From: Anaerolineae bacterium
Lineage (GTDB): Bacteria; Chloroflexota; Anaerolineae; JACIWR01
Direction: 5' to 3'
DNA length: 36,525 nt
Assembly: GCA_024653325.1 (NCBI GenBank)
Contig: JANLFX010000007.1
Coordinates: forward strand, 1 to 36,525
Shown: positions 12,311 through 18,086 of the stretch, one piece after another
Layout: each line of letters opens with the position of its first letter
Position numbering within the stretch: the stretch's first letter is position 1
Made by a program: the position numbers and the translations under genes
Notes under the pieces: model-generated
What the model saw: only the letters and a program-made list of their open reading frames with translations
Told to the model about the DNA's origin: nothing
Databases searched by the model: none

Positions 12311-13633
12311 ATGGCCGAGATCTGCCCGTTTCGCGGCGTGCGTTACAATCCAGCGCGATTTTCAAAGCTGGATGTAGTGGTCAGCCAACCCTATGACCGG
12401 GTGCGCTACGGCTTGCAGGAAAAGTATTATGAGTTGAGCCCATATAACATCGTGCGCATCATCAAGAATAAAGAAGAGCCAGGGGACGACGAGCACCATA
12501 ACGTCTACACTCGCGCCCGTGACCATTACTACCAGTGGTTGAATGAGGGGATCCTTGTCCGCGAGGCACAGCCTGCCCTCTATGTCTATCATCAAGAATT
12601 TACCATTAACGGTGTACAGCGGGTGCGCAAAGCTTTCATCGCCGCGTTGAAACTGGTGGAGTTCGATGAAGGCACAGTGTTGCCCCACGAGCGCACTCTC
12701 GCCGGACCCAAAATAGATCGCCTTAATCTGCTGCGGGCCACGGCTACCAATTTTGAGTTGGTTTTCATGCTCTACCCGGATCCCGAGAATCGGGTGAATG
12801 TCCTGTTGGATGCAGCTATCGCCGACCGTGCACCAGAGGTGGATGCAGTAGAGCTTTATGAGAAAGACGTGCGCCAGAAAATGTGGGTGGTTACCGATCC
12901 AAAGACGATTCAGGCCGTGCAAGCAGCCATGCGGCCCAAGCGCAACCTCATCATTGCCGATGGTCACCACCGCTATGAAACGTCCCTCAATTATCGTAAC
13001 GAGATGCGCACTGCTTACCCCGATGCTCCGCCTAACGCTGCTTTCAACTACCGGGCGGTGGCGCTGGTCAGTATGGACGATCCTGGCCTGACCATCCTGC
13101 CTACCCACCGGGAGGTTCATGACTACGACGTGGTGCCGGCGGACGTGCTTCTGGAACGAGCAGCGTCCTATTTCGAGGTCATTCCCGTAGCCGACCAGAC
13201 AGCCTGTTTGGAGCTGATGGCGCGGCGGAGGAATGAACATGCCATCGGCTTCTACGCGGCAGGCAAGTATCACGTTCTGGTGCTTAGAGATGAGTCGTTG
13301 CTGGATCAATTGATCACCGAGGCGCGCGTGGCAGCCTGGAAGCGGCTGGACGTGACCATTCTGCACAAGCTGCTCATCGAAGGTGTAGCCGGCATTGACG
13401 ACCACCTGTTGGAGCAAAAGATACGCTATCACCGTGACCTGCAGGGGGCGGTTGATAACGTGGACCGTGGCGAAGGAGAGTACGTGTTCCTGCTCAACCC
13501 CACCAGAATCGGCGAAGTAAAAGCCTGCTCCACTCAAGGGGAAAAGATGCCACAGAAGTCCACGGACTTTTATCCCAAAATGATCTCGGGCCTGGTAATC
13601 TGCCCGGTGAACGCGGACGAAACTTTGTGTTAG
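12311..13633 (+). CDS. DUF1015 family protein
   Basis: A 440-residue protein with the start typical of DUF1015 (ICPFRGVRYNP, VSQPYDRV) and the family's hallmark IADGHHRYETSLNYR motif near residue 217. The biochemical role is not established. The family is repeatedly found beside SerA and SerC-like genes, as here, and no phosphoserine phosphatase is present in this operon, so a part in the last step or control of serine synthesis is an attractive inference. CAGGAG lies seven bases before ATG 12311. The C-terminus ends FYPKMISGLVIC, also conserved in the family. Confidence 0.88.
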   Translation: MAEICPFRGVRYNPARFSKLDVVVSQPYDRVRYGLQEKYYELSPYNIVRIIKNKEEPGDDEHHNVYTRARDHYYQWLNEGILVREAQPALYVYHQEFTINGVQRVRKAFIAALKLVEFDEGTVLPHERTLAGPKIDRLNLLRATATNFELVFMLYPDPENRVNVLLDAAIADRAPEVDAVELYEKDVRQKMWVVTDPKTIQAVQAAMRPKRNLIIADGHHRYETSLNYRNEMRTAYPDAPPNAAFNYRAVALVSMDDPGLTILPTHREVHDYDVVPADVLLERAASYFEVIPVADQTACLELMARRRNEHAIGFYAAGKYHVLVLRDESLLDQLITEARVAAWKRLDVTILHKLLIEGVAGIDDHLLEQKIRYHRDLQGAVDNVDRGEGEYVFLLNPTRIGEVKACSTQGEKMPQKSTDFYPKMISGLVICPVNADETLC

Positions 13634-15633
13634 TGTTGAATAGTGACATGTTGCCGTTGGCTTACCCTTACGATCGCCGGGCATTGCTGGCTGCCTGGCA
13701 GCAATTCACCCAACAAGGCACCTGCAACTTTGCTGCCCTGGATCCTGCCGTGATGCGTTCCTGGCAACGTTGTTGGCAAATCGGCCTGGACCCCTACGTT
13801 TCCCCCATGGCTATGCGCCGTGAGGATGCCGAGGCTCTGGAACGGCGGCGACATGCGCATTTTGACCTGATCGCCATTGCCCGCCCGTTTATGGAGGACA
13901 TCTATCAGTTTGTCGGGGAACGGGACATCGTGGTTTACCTGGCCGACCGGGACTCCTGTATCCTGGATGCAGTGGGCGATCCGTCATTGCGTGAATTGCT
14001 GCAGGGCAGGGGTTTTGACTGCGGGCTGTTGCTGTCCGAAGAACTCTGCGGCACTAACGCCACGGCCCTGGCCCTGAACGAAGGAGTGCCGGTGCAGGTG
14101 GCGGGACCTGAGCACTATTGCGTTGCTTTTCACGCTCTTACTGGTACGGCTGCTCCCGTCCTTGCTCCTGCTGGTGAGCTGATAGGCGTATTGAGCATAG
14201 TCACTTTGGAAAGCAAGGGCCATCCTCATACCTTGGGGATTGTCATGGCCGCGGCCAAGGCCATCGAAAATCAATTGCAGGCGGATCTAAGCCTGACGGA
14301 TGCGTGTCATCACTTGGCGGAATTAAATGCTGCTTTGCAGGCGATGAGCAAAGGGGTCGTTTTCCTCGATACCTATGGCCGGGTCACACACCTCAATGCT
14401 CGGGCTGGGGAAATTCTGGGTTTTCCCCACCGAAAGGCCATGGGCCGGGAACTGACTTCCCTGGTCAGGCTGCCCAGCGAGGTGGAGGGGGCGATAGCCC
14501 GGCAGGTTGCATTGGCCGAGAAGGAAGTTGTCTTCCGAACGGTGGATGGGGACAGGTCTCGTCCCTGCCTGGCGAGCGTAGACATTTTGAAGGATGGTTC
14601 TCAGTTGTTGGGCCTCATCCTAATGCTGGAGCATACTGCCGAGGTGCGGCGTCTGGTGCATCGCATGGTGGGCGCGCAGGCTCACTTTACCTTCGACGAT
14701 ATTCTGTGTCAGGATGCAGAGATGAAGCGGGTGGTGTCTTATGCGCGCATCGCTGCCCAGGGAGATTCCAATGTGCTTCTTCTGGGAGAAAGCGGTACCG
14801 GCAAAGAGATGTTTGCCCAGGCCATTCACAATGGTGGTCGGCGGGCTAAAGGCCCCTTCATCGCCATCAACTGCGCGGCCATTCCCCGTGAGCTGATGGC
14901 CAGCGAACTGTTTGGATATGAGGGAGCATTCGCCGGAGCCGGGAAAGAAGGCCGGCCTGGCAAGTTCGAGCTGGCCGAGGGGGGCACCATCTTTTTCGAC
15001 AACGTGGACTGTATGCCCCTGGATATGCAGGCTGGACTGTTACGGGTGATTGATACCAAGGAAATAGTCCGTTTGGGTGGCACGCGGGTCATCACCCTGA
15101 ACGTGCGTATCATCGCTGCTTCCAGCAACCTGGACCTGGCCGGCGAGGTGCAACGAGGGAACTTCCGTGCCGACCTGTTTTATCGCCTCCATGTTCTGAC
15201 TCTGACCATTCCACCGTTGCGCGAGCGCGGTAACGATATCCTCCTGTTGGTCGCCCATCTGATCGAGAAATTCTCCCGTCGGCTGGGAAAAACGGTGACC
15301 GTTTCGCCCGGGGCGATGGCTGTACTACAGTCCTATCATTGGCCGGGAAACGTGCGCGAGCTGGAGAACGTATTGGAACGAGCCATGCACATGGTCAGCG
15401 GCTCCGAATTGATGGTAGAGCACCTGCCCTATGAACTGCGCATGGCTACCATCGGTGGCACAGACGAGGCTATACTGACCCTGCGGGAAGCTGAGCGCCA
15501 GGCGATCATCCGGGCCGGGCGGGCGCTGCGGGGCAACACCACCAAGATGGCCGAGGCTCTGGGCATTGGGCGCACTACCCTGTGGCGGAGGATGAAGGAT
15601 TTCAATCTGTCGCCGGAGTCTTTCAGGGGATAG
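13627..15633 (+). CDS. dhaR: DhaR/AcoR-like enhancer-binding protein with altered AAA+ motifs
   Basis: A 668-residue regulator: N-terminal region with MRSWQRC (43-49), GAF-like sensor (about 75-215), PAS-like domain (about 230-340), AAA+ domain (about 355-590) and a Fis-type helix-turn-helix at the end (TKMAEALGIGRTTLWRRMKD, 639-658). Walker A is intact (GESGTGKE, 387-394). The sigma54-contact loop reads GAFAGA (433-438) instead of GAFTGA, and Walker B reads FFDN (456-459) where D-E is usual. It lies just before the glycerol/dihydroxyacetone genes and is probably their activator. E. coli DhaR is known to act at a sigma70 promoter. The start is uncertain: GTG 13627 overlaps the previous gene; GTG 13633 and ATG 13648 are alternatives, all with weak ribosome binding sites. 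Confidence 0.85.
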   Translation: MLVLNSDMLPLAYPYDRRALLAAWQQFTQQGTCNFAALDPAVMRSWQRCWQIGLDPYVSPMAMRREDAEALERRRHAHFDLIAIARPFMEDIYQFVGERDIVVYLADRDSCILDAVGDPSLRELLQGRGFDCGLLLSEELCGTNATALALNEGVPVQVAGPEHYCVAFHALTGTAAPVLAPAGELIGVLSIVTLESKGHPHTLGIVMAAAKAIENQLQADLSLTDACHHLAELNAALQAMSKGVVFLDTYGRVTHLNARAGEILGFPHRKAMGRELTSLVRLPSEVEGAIARQVALAEKEVVFRTVDGDRSRPCLASVDILKDGSQLLGLILMLEHTAEVRRLVHRMVGAQAHFTFDDILCQDAEMKRVVSYARIAAQGDSNVLLLGESGTGKEMFAQAIHNGGRRAKGPFIAINCAAIPRELMASELFGYEGAFAGAGKEGRPGKFELAEGGTIFFDNVDCMPLDMQAGLLRVIDTKEIVRLGGTRVITLNVRIIAASSNLDLAGEVQRGNFRADLFYRLHVLTLTIPPLRERGNDILLLVAHLIEKFSRRLGKTVTVSPGAMAVLQSYHWPGNVRELENVLERAMHMVSGSELMVEHLPYELRMATIGGTDEAILTLREAERQAIIRAGRALRGNTTKMAEALGIGRTTLWRRMKDFNLSPESFRG

Positions 15634-15744
15634 TGAACGTGGGGCGGGTTGCTGCGGGTTATACGATTTGAAAAGTGGTGTTTTAGAAAGAAACGAAGTG
15701 ATTTGGCAAGCTGTTCCAGTATGAAACCAAATGGGGCAAAATCC

Positions 15745-15772
15745 TTGACAAAGTCACTTTCCGATGTATAAT
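15745..15772 (+). promoter_or_regulatory. Sigma70-type promoter of the glycerol/DHA operon
   Basis: TTGACA (15745-15750), 16 bases, TATAAT (15767-15772); predicted start near 15779. No convincing -24/-12 sigma54 element is seen nearby. The 110 bases between dhaR and this promoter are AT-richer than the genes and are where an activator site would be expected, but no clear dyad was found. Confidence 0.85.
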
Positions 15773-15840
15773 GAGAATGGGTAATATGGCTTCTGCACAT
15801 CGCATCACAGAGCGGTAAGTGCCCGAGGGAGGGGTGAGTC

Positions 15841-15907
15841 GTGCTCAAGCGGGAGAGAGCACTGGTAGAAGCTAACTGGTTTTTATGGTATGCAGCTACT
15901 AGCCGAC
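15841..15907 (+). ncRNA. Structured leader RNA upstream of glpF (candidate cis-regulatory RNA)
   Basis: GTGCTC (15841-15846) pairs with GAGCAC around a 10-nt loop. GGTAGAAGCT then pairs with AGCTACTAGCC (one bulge, one mismatch) around a 20-nt loop. Together with the terminator-like hairpin after it, the leader has three successive stem-loops, the arrangement of an attenuator or riboswitch expression platform. No known riboswitch consensus was recognised. Confidence 0.4.
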
Positions 15908-15957
15908 TTACGGTGAGTGGCTGGTATTTATCTCTTGATGATTTAGAAGGCATCTGA
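15841..15957 (+). CDS. 38-residue Trp-rich leader ORF
   Basis: GTG 15841 follows GAGGGAGGGG (15825-15834) at six bases and opens 38 codons ending in TGA 15955-15957. The peptide has three Trp, two Tyr and a hydrophobic middle (NWFLWYAATSRLTVSGWYL), then LDDLEGI. It lies wholly in the transcribed leader of glpF, and its stop codon falls within the attenuator-like hairpin at 15946-15984. It could be a regulatory leader peptide, a genuine small membrane-associated protein, or chance within a structured RNA. No homolog is recognised. Confidence 0.45.
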   Translation: MLKRERALVEANWFLWYAATSRLTVSGWYLSLDDLEGI

Positions 15958-15993
15958 CCGAGCCAGGCTCGAGATGGTGTCTTCTTTTTGTTT
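15946..15993 (+). terminator. Attenuator-like terminator in the glpF leader
   Basis: GAAGGCATC (15946-15954) pairs with GGTGTCTTC (15976-15984), with two G-T pairs. After a symmetric 4x4 internal loop, CGAGCC (15959-15964) faces GGCTCG (15966-15971). TTTTTGTTT follows at once. It lies about 115 bases before glpF, within the same predicted transcript, so read-through must be controlled or partial. Confidence 0.6.
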
Positions 15994-16029
15994 CTCTAGC
16001 TCAAGGGGGAAAGGGGGTGATCGCTAGAG
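15994..16029 (+). other. G-rich hairpin after the attenuator
   Basis: CTCTAGC (15994-16000) and GCTAGAG (16023-16029) flank a loop containing two G5 runs (GGGGGAAAGGGGG). It may be an extra leader structure; the rest of 16030-16090 shows nothing recognisable before the glpF ribosome binding site. Confidence 0.35.
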
Positions 16030-16105
16030 GACGCAAAGGGATTGGTATTTTCAGTTCGTACTATCTGCACACACCAAGCCATGATTTGAAAGGAGAGAAC
16101 AAACC

Positions 16106-16882
16106 ATGATGGGAGAATTGATTGGCGAGGTCTTCGGGACCTTCATCCTGATCCTGTTGGGCGATGGCGTGGTCGCCAACGTCGGGTTGGCCCCCCGTCT
16201 GGCCTCACCAGCCTACAACTGGAATACCATAACCTTCGGGTGGGCCATGGCGGTGATGGTCGCGGTGTACGTGACCGGCGGCGTCTCCGGCGCGCACATC
16301 AACCCGGCGGTGACCCTGGCCCTGGCCGTGAAGCGCGGCTTCCCCTGGGCCAAGGTTGTCCCCTACTGGATCGCGCAGATCGTGGGTGCTTTCCTGGGTG
16401 CCCTGGGCGTGTACCTGTGCTACTTTGATGGTCTGGTAGCGGCCGGCATGCCTAACGTCTGGTGCACTGGGCCAGGCTCGGTCTTCGGGCAGGCTTTCTG
16501 GGGTGGCACCGGGGCAGCGAGCGTGGGAGCGTACTCGCTGGGTATCGCCGTCGTAACCGAGATTTTCGGCACCGCCGTACTGCTGTGGGGTGTCCTGGCC
16601 AGCGGTGATACGAAGAACCTGGGCGTCGGTGCCAACCTCGGCCCGATGGTGGTGGCTCTCACCGTGCTGGCTGTGGGCCTGTGCCTGGGCGGGCCCAGTG
16701 GCTACTCCATTAACCCCGCCCGTGACTTCGGCCCGCGCCTCTTCGGTTTGCTCGTTGGCACCAAGGGGCTGTTCAGCGGCCTCTACTGGTTGGTGGCACC
16801 GATCATTGGTCCGCTAATCGGCGCGGTCATTGGCGTCTTCACCTACGACTGGTTCGTGACCCCTGTCGTGTCCAAGAAATAA
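16106..16882 (+). CDS. glpF: Glycerol facilitator (aquaglyceroporin)
   Basis: A 258-residue MIP-family channel with six membrane segments and two half-helices. The two NPA boxes are N66-P-A68 (SGAHINPAVTLAL) and N203-P-A205 (SINPARDFGPR), with R206 and D207 after the second box as in glycerol-conducting GlpF rather than water-specific aquaporins. It allows passive glycerol entry; trapping would follow by GlpK, encoded three genes on. AAAGGAGAG precedes ATG 16106; ATG 16109 is an equivalent start. It is the first gene after the attenuated leader. The segment after TM3 (FDGLVAAGMPNVWCTGPGSV) is a family-typical extracellular loop. Confidence 0.96.
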   Translation: MMGELIGEVFGTFILILLGDGVVANVGLAPRLASPAYNWNTITFGWAMAVMVAVYVTGGVSGAHINPAVTLALAVKRGFPWAKVVPYWIAQIVGAFLGALGVYLCYFDGLVAAGMPNVWCTGPGSVFGQAFWGGTGAASVGAYSLGIAVVTEIFGTAVLLWGVLASGDTKNLGVGANLGPMVVALTVLAVGLCLGGPSGYSINPARDFGPRLFGLLVGTKGLFSGLYWLVAPIIGPLIGAVIGVFTYDWFVTPVVSKK

Positions 16883-17012: not shown

Positions 17013-18086
17013 GTGAAAAAGCTGATAAACAAACCAGAGGATGTAGTGAGAGAAGAACTGGAGGGCATGGCGCTGGCCTTCCCAGATATGATCAAGGTGC
17101 ATTTTGATCCCAACTTTGTCTACCGCGCCGACGCTCCGGTCAAGGGCAAAGTGGCCGTCATCTCTGGTGGTGGCAGTGGCCACGAACCGATGCACGGTGG
17201 CTTTGTGGGCGTGGGTATGCTGGATGCGGCCTGCCCTGGCCAGGTCTTCACCTCACCGACTCCGGACCAGATGCTGGAAGCCACCAAGATGGTGGATGGT
17301 GGCGCAGGTGTGCTGCACATCGTCAAGAACTACAGTGGTGACATCATGAACTTCGAGATGGCCGCGGATATGGCCCGCTCCGAGGGCATTCGGGTGCTCA
17401 GTGTCATTATTGACGACGATGTGGCCGTAAAGGACAGCCTGTACACCCAGGGCCGGCGTGGTGTGGGTACCACGGTGCTGGCGGAGAAAATCTGCGGCGC
17501 CGCGGCAGAGAAGGGCTATGATCTGAAGAAGCTGGCCGATCTGTGCCGCAAGGTCAACATCAACGGCCGCAGCATGGGCATGGCCCTGACACCCTGTACA
17601 GTGCCCATGGCCGGCAAGCCCACCTTTACCCTGGGCGAGGATGAGATGGAGATCGGCATTGGCATCCACGGTGAGCCTGGTCGAGAGCGGATGAAACTCA
17701 AAACTGCCGACGAGATCACCGAAATGCTGGCTCTGTCCATCATCGAAGACCCGCCCTACAGGCGAACCATGCGCGAGTGGGATGAGGCCAAAGAGGAGTG
17801 GGTAGACGTTACTCTGGAGGATCCGCCTTTCAAGGCTGGGGATCAGGTGCTGGCCTTCGTGAATAGCATGGGCGGCACCCCGGTTATCGAGCTACCCATC
17901 GTCTATCGCAAACTGCATCAGGTCTGCGAGAAGAAGGGGCTGAAAATCGTCCGCAACCTCATTGGCCCGTACATCACCTCGCTGGAGATGCAGGGCTGCT
18001 CCATTACCCTGCTCAAGATGGACGATGAGCTGATCAAGCTGTGGGATGCGCCAGTTAAAACCCCGGGGCTGCGGTGGGGAATGTAA
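17013..18086 (+). CDS. dhaK: Dihydroxyacetone kinase subunit DhaK
   Basis: A 357-residue substrate-binding subunit of PEP-dependent dihydroxyacetone kinase. Family motifs are [16 protein letters not shown] (51-66), which shapes the active site, and GIGIHGEPG with His219, the conserved His that holds dihydroxyacetone as a hemiaminal. It receives phosphate from the ADP cofactor of DhaL, which is recharged by DhaM. GTG 17013 is chosen because AAAGGAGGC lies seven to eight bases upstream; an upstream opening at 16929 crosses the intercistronic hairpin. dhaL follows 62 bases later, and dhaM is 7.5 kb downstream. Confidence 0.96.

Follow-up and report, generated by a model that had tools for sequence, protein, structure and literature searches.

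A candidate ribosome-mediated transcription attenuator in the leader of a glpF-dhaK operon in Anaerolineae

A terminator lying between a promoter and the first gene of an operon raises the question of whether transcription is regulated at that point and, if so, by what. Such an arrangement was found in the 36,525-nucleotide stretch of DNA analysed here (the window, from contig 189 of a 3.86 Mb assembly), in which the gene order is a dhaR-like regulator, the leader, glpF, dhaK, dhaL, glpK, and a G3P oxidase-like gene. The genes relevant to the leader are:

13627-15633, + strand: dhaR-like regulator gene (NF008485, 529.6 bits, slightly below the cut-off of 551)
16106-16882, + strand: glpF, encoding a MIP-family channel, with its own Shine-Dalgarno (SD) sequence, AAAGGAGAG (TIGR00861, 171.7 bits)
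17013-18086, + strand: dhaK (TIGR02363)

For comparison, 39 glpF loci were assembled, each with up to 600 nt upstream of glpF. The relatives in which GlpF was found are Chloroflexota, mostly of the class Anaerolineae, and include a sister species (G001) with a glpF protein 95% identical to that of the window. A search for further relatives in the orders of G275, G022, and G086 yielded no new glpF loci, and a search of plasmid DNA gave no match. In the window, dhaR is itself preceded by an open reading frame (ORF) of 440 amino acids (12311-13633) with no match in NCBIfam, and the opposite strand carries an ORF of equal length at 12362-13684.

Three elements lie upstream of the leader:

15680-15694, no strand assigned: putative DhaR operator, upstream copy, GTTTTAGAAAGAAAC, two mismatches to GTTTCANNNTGAAAC
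15713-15727, no strand assigned: putative DhaR operator, downstream copy, GTTCCAGTATGAAAC, one mismatch to GTTTCANNNTGAAAC
15745-15772, + strand: sigma70-type promoter, TTGACA-16-TATAAT, 12/12 consensus positions

The consensus sigma70 promoter claimed in the preliminary description is thus present with every consensus position matched. The same site was the best promoter-like site of the region in a separate scan, and many relatives carry a perfect or 11/12 promoter at the equivalent place. The two operator copies are 33 bp apart in the window, and about 20 Anaerolineae loci have paired GTTTCANNNTGAAAC palindromes, 31-33 bp apart, ahead of the glpF promoter; a best copy with at most one mismatch was found in 20 of the 39 loci, versus 0 of 780 shuffles. 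The pair occurs mostly at loci with an adjacent dhaR and is mostly missing from loci without a visible dhaR end upstream (e.g., G059, G086, G024), so the paired palindromes at 15680-15727 are probably a DhaR operator, with binding by DhaR predicted from this distribution. In sigma54 activators, the motif GAFTGA is found at a place where the DhaR-like protein, like that of the sister species, has GAFAGA (14923-14940), a substitution that fits activation of a sigma70 promoter.

Downstream of this promoter, the leader carries an intrinsic terminator:

15945-15985, + strand: intrinsic terminator hairpin, -19.7 kcal/mol, z = -3.78, 1 of 200 shuffles as stable
15984-15993, + strand: U-run of the terminator, CTTTTTGTTT, read directly

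The hairpin is directly followed by TTTTTGTTT, and glpF begins about 110 nt past the terminator. Conservation and covariation of the leader stems in relatives had been set as a test in the preliminary description. In the sister species, the terminator keeps 15 of its 15 pairs, with three double-sided changes, and a hairpin further upstream (15894-15922) keeps 11 of 11, with two double-sided and three one-sided changes—that is, all pairs are kept in the two structures together, with five double-sided changes. When the pairing partner was shifted by 1-3 columns in the same alignment, at most 58% of the terminator remained paired. Column shuffles on two-sequence alignments were powerless (61/500 and 123/500) and are not counted as evidence, so the weight is carried by this slide control and the folding z-scores. 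The terminator-like hairpin with a T-run (15946-15993) that had been read by eye is accordingly borne out by both its stability and its conserved pairs.

U-run terminators between the promoter and glpF were found in about half of the loci (19 of 39, anchored), both with and without a neighbouring dhaR. Their sequences vary by family: one terminator, GACACC...GGTGTTTTT, is common to G059, G086, and G024, and another, GATACCGC...GCGGTATTTTT, to G201, L047, and L048, with further, different terminators in G248, G122, G249, G319, G333, and G377, and in G022 a hairpin of 18 pairs followed by a weak U-run. Most terminator-bearing loci have a strong promoter-like site upstream of the terminator, and no promoter-like site above shuffle level was found downstream of it in any of them. 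This recurrence, together with the lack of a promoter-like site past the terminator, supports the earlier suggestion of regulated read-through. A terminator at this position could also be non-regulatory, ending either dhaR read-through or a short RNA, with glpF expressed from constant partial read-through. A simple terminator scan detected no other terminator between dhaR and the promoter, as such a function would lead one to expect; the scan found none at all and missed even 15945-15985, probably because of its internal loop. Against a non-regulatory role, the terminator lies 3′ of a strong promoter, no promoter-like site follows it, and the placement of a leader ORF stop codon, described below, would be left unexplained. 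It also recurs at loci without a visible dhaR end upstream (G059, G086, G024, G275, G248), on which ground its reading as the dhaR terminator was rejected. A non-regulatory terminator is therefore considered unlikely, and the terminator-bearing leader is very likely a real attenuator.

What, then, would open the terminator? The preliminary description had listed two hairpins upstream of the terminator and a G-rich one after it, and had proposed an undescribed metabolite-binding RNA. The corresponding elements are:

15787-15874, + strand: branched 5′ stem-loop, closed by GGCUUCUGC/GGUAGAAGCU, z = -2.05
15894-15922, + strand: hairpin within the leader ORF, z = -3.35, 0 of 200 shuffles as good
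16010-16021, + strand: extended SD sequence, AAAGGGGGTGAT, 84 nt upstream of glpF

The two upstream hairpins are indeed present (the fold of 15786-15876 reaches -32.9 kcal/mol, with 9 of 200 shuffles as good). The G-rich hairpin (15994-16029) is at chance level (z = -0.37); its G-rich part is the extended SD, which is conserved among relatives in which the hairpin is not obvious. Taken as a whole, the leader folds with no unusual stability (z = -0.96). A riboswitch, with the terminator under the control of an aptamer made up of the two 5′ hairpins and binding glycerol, DHA, G3P, or DHAP, is suggested by the succession of two hairpins and a terminator ahead of a metabolic operon of a type that makes a metabolite sensor plausible. 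However, the part of the leader preceding the ORF is 41% identical to that of the sister species, as against 95% for the glpF protein, and identity rises to 54% within the ORF, 71% over the terminator, and 76% in the part next to glpF; of the leader, blastn recovers in that genome only the final 100 nt. The closing stem of the 5′ stem-loop is predicted at a different place there, and an aptamer-like conserved core is not seen across families. Furthermore, no Rfam match was obtained for the window leader (at gathering thresholds or E ≤ 10) or for 12 relatives (at gathering thresholds), in agreement with the earlier statement that no known riboswitch consensus is recognisable. Because identity rises toward glpF, the reverse of what an aptamer would give, and Rfam is silent, a riboswitch is very unlikely; the conserved features are instead those of an apparently translated ORF whose stop codon lies at the terminator. 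Rfam likewise gave no support for a GEMM-like GGACGCAAAG noticed by eye near 16026.

The extended SD was found as a match of at least 10/12 upstream of glpF in 22 of the 39 loci, versus 10 of 780 shuffles, at roughly 80-165 nt from glpF in most loci. It was considered as the ribosome binding site of a second leader ORF and rejected, since no start codon at a proper spacing follows it in the window and no conserved frame was found in relatives. The genome contains the exact element 19 times, in about 8-9 cases upstream of genes with their own SD, including several lipoprotein or membrane-protein genes at a distance of 75-180 nt. As RNA, AAAGGRGGTGAT is thus found at 16010-16021 and at 18 other places (L152-L169), a long way 5′ of genes, often for lipoproteins or membrane proteins, that have an SD themselves, and may possibly act as a genome-wide mRNA stabiliser. 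By analogy, it seems to resemble the STAB-SD of Bacillus thuringiensis cry3A, an SD-like sequence about 100 nt 5′ of the gene that does not initiate translation (PMC4113751), and it seems to be a general feature outside the attenuator.

Disruption of the terminator by a non-ribosomal protein bound to the leader has a precedent in the glpFK and glpD leaders of Bacillus subtilis, in which GlpP acts on an operon of the same type, with promoter, leader terminator, and gene arranged as here (PMC9604022). In contrast, GlpP (PF04309) was detected in 0 of 32 genomes (the source genome and 31 relatives), while the positive control, B. subtilis, was detected, and on this ground GlpP itself was rejected; moreover, no shared protein site is visible, because the terminator sequence differs between families. 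A non-ribosomal antiterminator protein is thus improbable, if less so than a riboswitch.

The leader had also been described as untranslated, which is wrong or at least unsupported, since it contains a short ORF preceded by a strong SD:

15825-15838, + strand: SD preceding the leader ORF, GAGGGAGGGGTGAG, pairing with the anti-SD at -13.4 kcal/mol, the strongest in the leader
15841-15957, + strand: leader ORF of 38 codons, GTG to TGA (15955-15957), predicted translation (V/M)LKRERALVEANWFLWYAATSRLTVSGWYLSLDDLEGI

The arrangement in the window is GAGGGAGGGGTGAG-TC-GTG, and AAAGGGGGGTGAG occupies the equivalent SD position in the sister species. The GTG lies at about +61 relative to a transcription start site (TSS) near 15779, the start region is enclosed by the 5′ stem-loop, and the TGA sits within the 5′ arm of the terminator.

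Whether the stop position is a general feature was assessed by a blind rule, by which each of 12 terminator-bearing leaders contributed a single start codon, the one having the most favourable SD energy; selection was by SD alone because the ORFs must not be chosen to fit. The resulting stop codon fell at -12 to +14 nt from the 5′ edge of the terminator in 8 of the 12 leaders, an interval set after the data had been seen, compared with a mean of 2.7 in dinucleotide shuffles, which reached at least 8 in 2 of 1000 trials—counts that overstate independence, because the 12 leaders are partly related. In five of these eight ORFs, the start score is as good as or better than -7 kcal/mol (2/1000 shuffles). 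Ten loci have their ORF start between TSS+46 and TSS+62, and in seven loci Leu is encoded directly after the start (G000, the source of the window, and G001, G022, G275, G059, G086, and G024). In G120 and G076, two species of another family, the leader ORF is kept and a clear U-run terminator is missing; their peptides share PWAGRRG, encoded with four synonymous third-base changes (CCG/CCA, GGG/GGA, AGG/AGA, AGA/AGG) and no others. Some leaders depart from the pattern: the frame continues through the terminator in G024 and G248, the ORF of G275 has a weak SD and was spotted by eye outside the blind rule, and the three leaders of family f53 would need leaderless initiation, with the start codon coinciding with the transcription start or adjacent to it. 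Between families, the peptides share no motif except a Met-Leu start, and this divergence leaves no arrest motif visible. Stop placement, start position, the Leu codon, and the synonymous changes together make translation of the leader ORF likely.

The leader thus has a short, SD-bearing ORF, a terminator before the first gene, and an ORF placed to affect that terminator, as in leader-peptide attenuators. We therefore favour, with moderate confidence, a ribosome-mediated transcription attenuator in which a ribosome at the leader stop codon occludes the terminator. RNA polymerase would start near 15779 and copy the short ORF with its strong SD before reaching the intrinsic terminator, whose 5′ arm contains the leader stop codon. 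The footprint of a translating ribosome extends about 12 nt past its codon (PMC4833913), so a ribosome positioned at this stop would cover the base of the terminator, and polymerase would continue into glpF-dhaK-dhaL-glpK. If the leader were untranslated, if the ribosome lagged or stalled early, or if it were released before synthesis of the 3′ arm, the terminator would form and transcription would end. Occlusion of an intrinsic terminator by a ribosome has been documented for B. subtilis tlrB (PMC6851288), and prevention of intrinsic termination by the ribosome is known more generally in coupled transcription-translation (PMC5021804).

A different use of the same ORF would be classical amino-acid attenuation, in which ribosome stalling at Trp codons frees an antiterminator and Trp shortage turns the operon on. 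Indeed, the SD-chosen ORFs contain 19 TGG codons in frame, versus 6 and 8 in the other frames (2-3/1000 shuffles; 9.6 ± 2.7 expected from shuffles without in-frame stops), and all 12 terminator-bearing leaders, with some ORFs picked by position, contain 25 versus 8 and 10. Trp is the most over-represented of the 20 residues in the leader ORFs, with a z of 3.4 that is borderline after correction for 20 residues, becomes weak with one leader per family, and comes from a test made because the enrichment had already been noticed. This roughly twofold enrichment is suggestive only, and the ORFs of G059 and G024 contain no Trp codon. Classical attenuation is further opposed by the stop codons, which lie at the terminator and not well upstream of it, and by upstream pairing of the terminator 5′ arm, which was no better than chance in the 12 leaders; an antiterminator of GGCUGGU with ACCGAGCC, attractive by eye, was likewise no better than shuffles. 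In the window, the Trp codons (13, 16, and 28) lie so far upstream that a ribosome stalled at one of them would not cover the terminator at 15945, and such a stall would count as an early one. With Trp codons too distant and no antiterminator pairing better than chance, the evidence favours occlusion at or near the stop codon over the classical trp logic, which is highly improbable here.

The gene content of the genomes is also relevant to Trp. No match to TIGR00564 (trpE) was found in the source genome, the sister species, or 19 other Anaerolineae, suggesting tryptophan auxotrophy in many of the genomes examined. Of the 13 genomes in which a leader ORF is present, 12 (all but G377) lack trpE; among the remaining 18, 8 have it above the cut-off, and G387 is a further, partial case. 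Within genus g43, G394 has trpE and no leader ORF, and three genomes without trpE have a leader ORF (with a weak SD in G100). This association, confounded by phylogeny and incomplete genomes, is a lead, and could be cited in favour of classical Trp attenuation as well. Judged from sequence, Trp-tRNA supply is the sole candidate for a specific signal. It is conceivable, if rather doubtful, that in Trp-auxotrophic Anaerolineae a leader peptide defined by nothing but its Trp codons and stop position couples the glycerol/DHA uptake operon to Trp-tRNA supply. The logic would then be inverted: a fully translated leader would keep the terminator open, and Trp-tRNA shortage would close it.

Most known cases of leader-peptide attenuation concern amino-acid and resistance genes, and a limited literature search found no leader-peptide attenuator described in Chloroflexota or at such an operon. 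Because position and codon content are conserved while the peptides have diverged, sequence-based RNA or peptide searches would miss such leaders. Among known systems, B. subtilis tlrB (yxjB) and similar stalling attenuators have a short translated ORF directly 5′ of an intrinsic terminator, and a ribosome near the ORF end prevents the terminator base from forming, both as proposed here; however, tlrB is induced by tylosin and contains a conserved arrest motif, RXR, whereas the glpF leaders have no visible motif and precede a metabolic gene (PMC6851288). In the tnaC and speFL leaders of E. coli, whether a catabolic operon is transcribed depends on a ribosome at the stop codon of the leader, and the peptide likewise contains Trp residues, but these are arrest peptides with conserved residues, unlike the glpF leader peptides, and the tna terminator is Rho-dependent, whereas that of the glpF leader is intrinsic (PMC8429421). 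The B. subtilis glpFK and glpD leaders likewise have a conditional intrinsic terminator between the promoter and glycerol genes, but they need the RNA-binding protein GlpP, absent here, and a leader ORF is not described as part of their system (PMC9604022). A ribosome-based glpF-dhaK attenuator in Chloroflexota would thus be a solution independent of Bacillus GlpP, linking carbon uptake to the state of translation.
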